From positions 62,001 to 126,000 of the forward strand of contig OMVQ01000003.1 of assembly GCA_900314555.1 (NCBI GenBank): 64,000 bases of DNA, given 5' to 3'. The position numbers and the translations under genes are program-made. Below are positions 7,575 to 10,504 of this stretch, in pieces. The stretch comes from an uncultured Eubacteriales bacterium. GTDB lineage: Bacteria; Bacillota; Clostridia; Lachnospirales; Lachnospiraceae. Position 1 is the first letter of the stretch. The number at the start of each line of letters is the position of its first letter. Under the pieces are notes generated by a model. It worked only from the letters and a program-made list of their open reading frames with translations, ran no database searches and was not told the DNA's origin.

Positions 7575-7761
7575 TATAAATCAGTTAGTATTTATGTCTA
7601 ACGAAAACAAACTCATTTTCGCGTTTTGCTGCGTCGTCTAGTGAAAGCTGTTACGCAAACTCGCCTCAGGCTCAAACAGTGCTTCACAGCTTTCACTATA
7701 CTCGCAAAACTTCAAAAATTAAGCTATGTTTTCTTATATATATAAATACTAACTGATTATA
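7575..7761. repeat. Large nested palindromic element between convergent genes
   Basis: Outer arms 7575-7595 and 7742-7761 are inverted repeats differing by a single base insertion. Inside, 7603-7608 pairs with 7728-7733, 7623-7629 with 7704-7710, and 7639-7651 perfectly with 7686-7698. The element is about 187 bases, non-coding, and lies between thiI (+) and the minus-strand HPr-like gene. It could be a MITE-like insertion or a bidirectional terminator. No transposase or clear target duplication was seen. Confidence 0.75.
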
Positions 7762-8225: not shown

Positions 8226-9539
8226 TTGAAGAAAAAAGTCGCATTGCATAATTTAGGTTGTAAGGTTAATGCATATGAAACAGAGGCAATGGGGGAAGAA
8301 TTAGCTAATAGTGGATACGAGATAGTACCTTTTGAAGAGGGTGCAGACATTTATATTATAAATACATGTACGGTAACTAATATTGCGGACAGAAAATCAA
8401 GACAGATGCTTCATAAAGCAAAGAAGATGAATAAAGATGCAATAGTAGTAGCGGTAGGCTGTTATGCGCAGGCGGCTTCAGAGAAGTTAGAGAAAGATGA
8501 AGCTATTGATATAATTGTCGGTAACGATATGAAAAAGGACATTGTTAATATAATCAATAATTGTGTTGATAAAAAAGTATCCGTTGTTGATATAAATGAT
8601 ACAAAGGTTAAAAGGGAATATGAAGAGTTAAATATTGCCAGTATGGAAGAACATACAAGGGCATATATTAAGATTCAGGACGGCTGTAACCAGTTCTGCA
8701 CATATTGTATAATTCCTTATGCGAGGGGCAGGGTGAGAAGCAGAAAGTTAGAGAATATAATAAATGAAGTAAAGAGATTATCTGATAAAGGATATAAAGA
8801 GATAGTTTTAACAGGTATTCATCTTAGTTCATACGGCATTGACTTTAAGGACGAAAATGTTTCGCTTATAGATGTAATAGAAGAAATAGGTAAAAATGAA
8901 GGAATAAAGAGAATAAGATTAGGTTCATTAGAGCCTAGAATAATAACTGAAGAATTCTTAGAAAGACTTACTAAGATAGAAGCATTTTGTCCACATTTTC
9001 ATCTGTCATTACAAAGTGGCTGCGATGAAACTTTAAAGAGAATGAACAGAAGATATACTTCTGAGGAATATTTAGAGGGTTGTAAATTAATAAGAAAATA
9101 TTATCCTAAAGCAGCGATTACTACAGATGTTATCGTTGGTTTTCCGGGAGAAACCGAAGAAGAATTTGATAAATGTAAGAATTTCTTAGAAGAAGTGAAT
9201 TTTGCACAGATGCATATATTCAAGTATTCAAGAAGAGAGGGTACTAAGGCGGCTGTAATGCCTGAACAGATAAGAGATGAAGTTAAGGCTTTAAGAAGTG
9301 ATGTACTTATTGAATTGAATGAAAGACTTCATAAAGACTATCTTAACAGCTTCATAGGTGACACTAAAGAGGTGTTATTTGAAGAAAAAGTTAAGATAAA
9401 TGATAAAGAATATTTCATTGGACATACTATGGAATATGTTAAAGTTGCAATAGATACAGATGAGAATTTAGAGAATAAAATAGCAGCGGTAAAACTTAAA
9501 GAATTATTAAATAATGAAATAGTACTTGCTATGTTTTAA
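8226..9539 (+). CDS. mtaB: tRNA N6-threonylcarbamoyladenosine(37) methylthiotransferase MtaB
   Basis: 437-residue radical-SAM methylthiotransferase that converts t6A37 of tRNA to ms2t6A. The N-terminal UPF0004 domain supplies three cluster cysteines (LGCKVN, NTCTV, VGCYAQ). The radical-SAM motif is CNQFCTYC, followed by IPYARGRVRSR, and a TRAM domain ends the protein. MALHNLGCKVN-type starts are typical of MtaB rather than MiaB or RimO. The start is TTG 8226 with GAGG about ten bases upstream. Confidence 0.93.
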   Translation: MKKKVALHNLGCKVNAYETEAMGEELANSGYEIVPFEEGADIYIINTCTVTNIADRKSRQMLHKAKKMNKDAIVVAVGCYAQAASEKLEKDEAIDIIVGNDMKKDIVNIINNCVDKKVSVVDINDTKVKREYEELNIASMEEHTRAYIKIQDGCNQFCTYCIIPYARGRVRSRKLENIINEVKRLSDKGYKEIVLTGIHLSSYGIDFKDENVSLIDVIEEIGKNEGIKRIRLGSLEPRIITEEFLERLTKIEAFCPHFHLSLQSGCDETLKRMNRRYTSEEYLEGCKLIRKYYPKAAITTDVIVGFPGETEEEFDKCKNFLEEVNFAQMHIFKYSRREGTKAAVMPEQIRDEVKALRSDVLIELNERLHKDYLNSFIGDTKEVLFEEKVKINDKEYFIGHTMEYVKVAIDTDENLENKIAAVKLKELLNNEIVLAMF

Positions 9540-9620
9540 ATTTTATATTAGAATAATGAAAGATATTTTTGAGCGTGATATGTATGAGTTAAAGATATTT
9601 ATAAATTAAAATTAATATAA

Positions 9621-9698
9621 AGCGAAAGAAAAATAATAGTAAAGGAAAATAACTGCCGAGAACTTTCTTTCGTTATAAATGGCAGTATCGCATATGCG
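9621..9698 (+). promoter_or_regulatory. Structured leader (possible pseudoknot) before ireB
   Basis: Stem 1 pairs 9621-9631 with 9664-9674 (11 bp, one G-U). Stem 2 pairs ACTGCC 9652-9657, in the loop of stem 1, with GGCAGT 9681-9686 beyond it, which is the layout of an H-type pseudoknot. A perfect palindrome CGCATATGCG follows at 9689-9698. The ireB start at 9716 has no clear ribosome site of its own. I do not recognise a known riboswitch family. Confidence 0.45.
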
Positions 9699-9715
9699 GT
9701 AAATGGTATGAATAG

Positions 9716-9979
9716 ATGAATAACAATGTTAATAATACACAGTATTTTAGAGCGCCGGCAGAGGCTAAACTTGAAGTAGGACAGATTTTAGAGTGTGTGT
9801 ACAAGGCACTTGTTGAAAAGGGATATAATCCTGTTAATCAGATAGTGGGATATATTATGTCCGGAGATCCAACTTATATAACAAGTCACAATAATGCCAG
9901 AAGTCTCATAATGCGTGTTGAAAGAGATGAACTTATCGAAGAGGCTTTAACATATTACATAAATAATAAGCTTAAATAA
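9716..9979 (+). CDS. ireB: IreB family regulatory phosphoprotein (UPF0297)
   Basis: 87-residue small protein with the family pattern [35 protein letters not shown]. In Enterococcus, IreB is phosphorylated by the Ser/Thr kinase IreK and affects cephalosporin resistance; its biochemical function is otherwise unclear. It leads the conserved cluster ireB-ruvX-DUF1292, with 17 bases to ruvX. The ribosome site is weak and the leader is highly structured. Confidence 0.92.
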
Positions 9980-9996
9980 TAGAAATGAGGTATATT

Positions 9997-10422
9997 ATGC
10001 GAATAATGGGCTTGGACTTTGGCTCTAAGACCGTTGGGGTAGCGGTTTCTGATCCGCTTTATATTACAGCGCAGGGTGTTGAGATTATCCGCAGAGAGCA
10101 GGAGAATAAACTTAGAAAGACACTTGCAAGGATAGAAGAATTAGTTAAAGAATATGAAGTAGAAGAAATCGTACTTGGACTTCCGAAGAATATGAATAAT
10201 TCAATTGGTGAACGTGCAGAAAAGACCTTAGAATTCAAAGCAATGTTAGAGAGAAGAACAGGACTTAATGTTGTTATGTGGGACGAAAGATTAACAACTG
10301 TAGCTGCCGATAAGACTATGATGGAAGTCGGTGTCAGAAGAGAAAACAGAAAGAAATATGTAGATCAGATAGCTGCAACATTTATATTGCAGGGCTATTT
10401 AGATTCGCGTGACGGACAATAA
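9997..10422 (+). CDS. ruvX: Holliday junction resolvase-like / pre-16S rRNA nuclease RuvX (YqgF)
   Basis: 141-residue RNase H-fold protein. [17 protein letters not shown] holds the first catalytic Asp, [12 protein letters not shown] the Glu region, and [12 protein letters not shown] the second acidic motif. YqgF homologues process the 5' end of pre-16S rRNA and resemble junction resolvases. An ATG at 9985 is in frame, but its own bases form the GAGG (9987-9990) that lies six bases before ATG 9997, so 9997 is the likely start. Confidence 0.93.
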
Positions 10423-10504
10423 ATATAAGTGTATACGTGGTGTAGTCTGCTTATGGGCGAGGGCAGATTATGTGTATTAATGTCGCCAGGAAAAGAGGTT
10501 AATT

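Follow-up and report, generated by a model that had tools for sequence, protein, structure and literature searches.

The leader of ireB in the window, by which we mean the whole 64,000-nucleotide stretch of DNA analysed here, is perhaps best read as a split ribosome-binding site that three species of the genus have in common and that is more elaborate in the window, a reading for which we hold belief and doubt to be about evenly balanced. The window leader itself is likely a lineage-specific form of such a site. We infer that the 30S subunit docks on AAAGGA, a Shine-Dalgarno (SD) match at 9641-9646 that is absent from the first-pass annotation, and that two tandem hairpins (9652-9686 and 9687-9700) leave 5 + 2 = 7 unpaired nt before the AUG at 9703, which is a normal SD-to-AUG distance. 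The first-pass annotation had proposed a pseudoknot RNA leader upstream of ireB; a structured leader and a true ireB are indeed present, but the pseudoknot finds no support among relatives.

The gene order of the locus is thiI-like gene, HPr-like gene (opposite strand), radical SAM gene, a gene-free interval (9540-9715), ireB, ruvX, DUF1292 gene and RNase J gene. We take the radical SAM gene to be of the MtaB type (mtaB-like), and ireB is presumably of the reoM/yrzL type. The product of 9716-9979 matches the Pfam IreB family (E 2.2e-36), identifying a true ireB, and its start is fixed at 9716 with none further up because an in-frame TAG precedes the AUG. The closest named relatives of this ireB, among the matches listed, are labelled Lachnospiraceae, and the ireB upstream DNA of one named Lachnospiraceae relative (L036) is identical to that of a genome of the window's genus. 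A protein-seeded scan found no ireB relatives in viral contigs, and the open-access literature searched yielded no account of a leader of ireB or reoM. IreB/ReoM has been described as having a role in cell-wall synthesis in Firmicutes (PMC7286690).

A promoter-like site (Table 1) predicts a transcript start at ~9561. Promoter patterns in the scan are about as numerous as expected by chance, and it returned no + strand site between this block and ireB. All 13 leaders compared have TTGC and, 14-20 nt further on, TATTA at the same place, the end of the upstream gene, and 11 of the 13 have TATTA(A/G)AAT. The stems begin ~60 nt inside the transcript predicted from this block, so a transcript starting after the stems, which had been raised as an objection to the proposed leader, is not what the sequence and its conservation in relatives suggest. 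Within the predicted 5' hairpin, GAGCGTGA at 9571-9578 is by alignment the counterpart of the family's GGACGTGA box.

Table 1. Features of the ireB leader and adjoining genes, in window coordinates
Feature	Position	Strand	Basis or remark
Promoter-like site TTGCTA, 17 nt, TAGAAT	9526-9554	+	Pattern scan; overlaps end of mtaB-like gene
Predicted 5' hairpin of transcript	9561-9600	+	MFE fold
Stem 1, 5' arm	9621-9631	+	
SD match AAAGGA	9641-9646	+	Anti-SD duplex; in pseudoknot loop 1; matches GAAAGGA of L008/L009
Stem 2, 5' arm	9652-9658	+	Insertion relative to L008/L009 begins here
Stem 1, 3' arm	9664-9674	+	
Stem 2, 3' arm	9680-9686	+	
Terminal hairpin ATCGC-ATAT-GCGGT	9687-9700	+	Counterpart of TTCGC-NNNN-GCGAA in L008/L009; pair probabilities 0.98-0.99
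Two-codon ORF AUG GUA UGA	9703-9711	+	Bridged distance from SD (7 unpaired nt)
Second micro-ORF AUG AAU AGA UGA	9708-9719	+	Stop overlaps ireB start (AUGA); read from sequence
ireB	9716-9979	+	87 aa; in-frame TAG directly upstream
ruvX, next in cluster	9985-10422	+	

At least 150 ireB loci were collected, a non-random set picked by closeness to the window's IreB, which yielded 139 distinct upstream regions for scoring alongside 8 duplicates and 3 that were too short. A near SD, defined as 16S-tail pairing of -6 kcal/mol or better within -14 to -2, is present in 135/139 of these regions. The remaining four are the window, L008 and L009 (-4.1 kcal/mol each), which are loci in the window's genus, and L081 (-0.8 kcal/mol). 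The earlier remark that ireB has no obvious ribosome site holds for the bases immediately preceding ATG 9716, where the best near SD pairs at -3.1 kcal/mol. This lack is unusual for the window, as 47/56 of its large ORFs are preceded by a near SD scoring -7 or better, a count for which the choice of starts favoured an SD and from which a 90-codon cut excludes ireB.

The survey also returned other leader types. In L081, a -10-like TAAAAT stands 7 nt before the ireB ATG (upstream of 2501) without an SD, and this message is probably leaderless. The motif GG(A/G)CGTGA, which differs from the extended SD GGAGGUGA at one position, occurs within 40 nt before ireB in 73/141 distinct upstream regions (scan of L001-L030, L036-L115 and L128-L167). 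In three leaders of the window's genus (L005, L006 and L013), CGTGA persists shortly after the promoter-like block with a separate GGAGG as the SD, as if it had another role. Roseburia-like leaders (L044, L054, L058, L066 and L164) tend to have the order TGCTTTT, variable hairpin, GAGCAG or a near variant, TAAGGGCGTGA and ireB, with L043 following the pattern in part and lacking TGCTTTT; these are a candidate structured leader.

The leaders of L008 and L009 consist of GTGAAAGGAAAA, then TTCGC-NNNN-GCGAA, then AATGGTAAGAAAAATG, with both ATGs in frame with ireB, and the window leader of TAAAGGAAAATA, ~35 extra nt, ATCGC-ATAT-GCGGT and AAATGGTATGAATAGATG. The alignment score of the window leader with either one is reached by 2/1000 shuffles, and within one mismatch TCGCATATGCG is restricted to these three of the 139 upstream regions. 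Their common architecture is AAAGGA-(5 nt)-folded spacer-(1-2 nt)-AUG, and the common part (AAAGGA, terminal hairpin and AUGG) speaks for an arrangement that serves translation initiation, not for a pseudoknot that binds a ligand. In two trees L008 and L009 group as sisters, so that the three species represent at most two independent cases, and neither tree resolves the position of the window among its 9 congeners; the split site may thus be ancestral and since lost in some lineages, exchanged between them, or gained twice. The clade of L008 and L009 also includes L005, whose leader is short and of the ordinary type. At the outer pair of the terminal hairpin, two species have U-A where the window has A-U, a covariation that amounts to one double change in 3 sequences and is reached by 177/500 shuffles. 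Searching 397 family genomes, a sample without G006 and G008, for an SD-TTCGC-hairpin-ATG pattern that is incapable of matching the window gave one match (L168) versus 2 for the reversed control. A looser pattern applied to the 9 genus genomes matched the ireB leaders of G006 and G008 only, with one control match in G005, and misses the window because the hairpin is further from AAAGGA there.

Folded alone, the window spacer between AAAGGA and AUG 9703 consists of 5 unpaired nt, two successive hairpins and 2 unpaired nt, reducing 56 nt to 7, and that of L008 and L009 of 5 unpaired nt, one hairpin and 1 unpaired nt, reducing 20 nt to 6. Single-base shuffles of the spacer fold equally well in 6/500 cases for the window, 4/500 for L008 and 0/500 for L009; in the full-leader MFE fold of L009 the hairpin is reduced to 4 bp. 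The extra 35-36 nt of the window relative to L008 and L009 have stem 2 at both ends, so that this insert forms a second hairpin directly abutting the terminal one and preserves the effective spacing. The AUG of ireB itself (9716) is 20 unpaired nt from the SD. In L008 and L009 the single hairpin would bridge to an AUG in frame with ireB, adding MVRK to the protein. The corresponding AUG at 9703 is out of frame in the window due to a length change between the two AUGs. Because it opens AUG-GUA-UGA only, the far SD would feed AUG 9703 (or 9708) and ribosomes would reach ireB by re-initiation, the stop of the two-codon ORF being 4 nt before the ireB AUG. IreB output obtained by this route would probably be low and of a set level.

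The leaders of the genus vary greatly in length and sequence, as might be expected if the leader were neutral, that is, a fast-changing spacer folding by chance, with idle hairpins and with SD-independent initiation of ireB at an unstructured, U/A-rich start. Elsewhere in the cluster, the spacer preceding the DUF1292 gene likewise varies among species and folds into unrelated hairpins, and pseudoknot-like pairings of equal strength are found elsewhere in the window and before ireB in L018 and L028. We nevertheless consider a neutral leader rather unlikely, because the window shares its SD block, hairpin and AUGG with L008 and L009 to a degree matched by 2/1000 shuffles, and because the near SD has been lost in just these three leaders (and L081). 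A far SD with a spacer folding to 3-10 unpaired nt, in a search extended to AUGs as far as 20 nt upstream, is present in 12/139 leaders, comprising the window, L008, L009 and 9/135 near-SD leaders, the latter fraction being a point in favour of chance folding. The split-like arrangement is therefore found in 3/4 leaders without a near SD versus 9/135 with one (hypergeometric probability 0.002, the true weight of which is lower because L008 and L009 are sisters). Among the nine is L004 of the same genus, in which AAAGGA is followed by a TTCGC...GCGAA pair with 40 nt inside and an ordinary GGAGG also precedes the ATG; this leader was rejected as support, its alignment to the window being reached by 785/1000 shuffles.

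The interlocking stems of 11 and 6 bp and the 10-base palindrome of the first-pass annotation are present exactly where it had placed them. Stem 1 pairs AGCGAAAGAAA with TTTCTTTCGTT through 11 pairs including one G-U, its arms being an A-rich and a U-rich run. Stem 2 pairs ACTGCC (9652-9657) with GGCAGT (9681-9686) through 6 pairs, or 7 with a possible G9658-U9680; with this G-U pair counted, the interlocked stems have loops of 20, 5 and 5 nt. The palindrome, CGCATATGCG at 9689-9698, extends to the 5-bp terminal hairpin. The best H-type pair in 9540-9720 has a stacking sum of -30.4, which 0/300 dinucleotide shuffles reach (mean -17.3, sd 2.7). It ranks third on the + strand of the whole window, with one better place on the - strand (1064 tiles of 181 nt per strand), and third among the 139 ireB upstream regions, after L018 and L028. 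The pairing is thus unusual and strong, but with better-scoring places elsewhere in the window and in two ireB leaders it is not unique.

The best-scoring pairings of the window scan belong to a 13-bp stem at 7639-7698, seen on both strands between the convergent thiI-like and HPr-like genes, which may be a terminator. A second H-type pairing before the DUF1292 gene (10434-10495; AGTCTGC/GCAGATT with GGGCGA/TCGCC) looks species-specific, as the sequence upstream of this gene differs and folds otherwise in 11 relatives (gene found in 11/12 queried). The other 8 genus leaders score -13.7 to -25.1 in bulk scoring that allowed any letters, versus -30.4 in the window. The second-best of the genus, at -25.1, is L010 (G007), whose long leader contains, ~125 nt before ireB, a 10-bp hairpin (TAAAGAAAAC/GTTTTCTTTA) similar to stem 1 in composition; it too was set aside as support, since its alignment to the window is reached by 842/1000 shuffles.

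Nested folding, which cannot represent pseudoknots, gives z = -2.09 for 9600-9740 (8/200 shuffles at least equal), and in 9561-9760 puts stem 1 ahead of stem 2 by 4.6 kcal/mol, the probability of stem 2 being 0.0. As the nested fold prefers stem 1, bridging in the window would need the pseudoknot, a change of fold or help. For a split site, stem 1 is predicted to join the region 5' of the SD to the first hairpin's loop; enclosure of the SD by this stem may tune the site.

The same stems could instead form a regulatory pseudoknot or switch, in which a ligand, protein or temperature alternates or interlocks stems 1 and 2 so that the SD is closed (OFF) or presented bridged (ON). The location of the SD in pseudoknot loop 1, the exclusion of stem 2 from nested folds containing stem 1 and a combined pairing strength reached by none of 300 shuffles are all consistent with this. 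Control of ireB level may also matter, as the reoM ribosome site was mutated in a Listeria gpsB suppressor strain, an effect of this mutation on expression being unclear according to the authors (PMC7286690). A switch is clearly unlikely, however, given that the two stem-1 arms together (up to 2 mismatches allowed) and the exact hairpin of stem 2 each occur in 1/139 ireB upstream regions, that of the window, and that an Rfam search gave no match in the window. The stem-1 5' arm alone is present at the same limit in L008, L009 and seven other leaders, from which the 3' arm is absent. The window DNA of 9605-9725 has matches of 19-43 bases, and none longer, in 31/298 other family genomes searched. 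A conserved pseudoknot riboswitch is not supported by these comparisons. With E values up to 10 allowed, Rfam returned SCARNA7 alone for 9520-10000, at 8.1 bits versus a gathering score of 65. A riboswitch of known class was accordingly rejected, in agreement with the earlier statement that the leader matches no known riboswitch. A repeated element was also rejected, since the 9540-9725 DNA occurs once in its own genome and other matches have E values of 0.12 or worse.

A self-bridging translational switch would combine these elements. Stem 1 alone would enclose the SD, far from any AUG, in the OFF state; in the ON state the pseudoknot, or stem 2 and the terminal hairpin stacked coaxially, would bring the SD to the two-codon ORF, with re-initiation at ireB. 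Taken jointly, we regard the two states and re-initiation as a long shot. Translational riboswitches of the preQ1 type are likewise built on an H-type pseudoknot with the SD in or beside it, but their stem lengths, loop sequences and position are unlike those of the window leader, the pseudoknot of which, unlike theirs, has neither an Rfam match nor conservation in the 139 upstream regions.

In the E. coli thrS leader, through which threonyl-tRNA synthetase represses, the SD adjoins the AUG, with single-stranded RNA further upstream as an additional place for docking. That leader has been described as a split site in which ribosome binding depends on an upstream single-stranded stretch and a long hairpin can be accommodated (PMC3936740), and the window leader resembles it in having a single-stranded ribosome site and a hairpin. 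A protein operator, with a repressor binding the split-site hairpins as threonyl-tRNA synthetase does on thrS, is nonetheless most improbable, considering that the terminal loops differ between the window, L008 and L009 (ATAT, ATAA and ATTT).

We return to the split ribosome-binding site, an arrangement best known from phage T4, where a hairpin cuts the SD-AUG spacing from 22 to 5 nt in gene 38 and from 27 to 11 nt in gene 25, with mutational support (PMC3014915). As in these genes, the SD of the window is too distant from the AUG and the spacing would be restored by folded RNA between them. Unlike them, the window case concerns a chromosomal regulatory gene of a Lachnospiraceae genus, read from sequence alone, and has two tandem hairpins over 56 nt, a pseudoknot-capable upstream arm and a two-codon ORF. 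The gene 25 arrangement is limited to close T-even phages (PMC3014915). If the split-site reading is true, a far SD and folded spacer have taken the place of an ordinary site in some species, whereas related species retain the ordinary kind, which would provide a natural series for the origin of such sites, and we infer that gene finders based on a near SD could misjudge starts of this kind. Should the self-bridging switch be true, the amount of IreB/ReoM, a brake on cell-wall synthesis, would be set by RNA folding.
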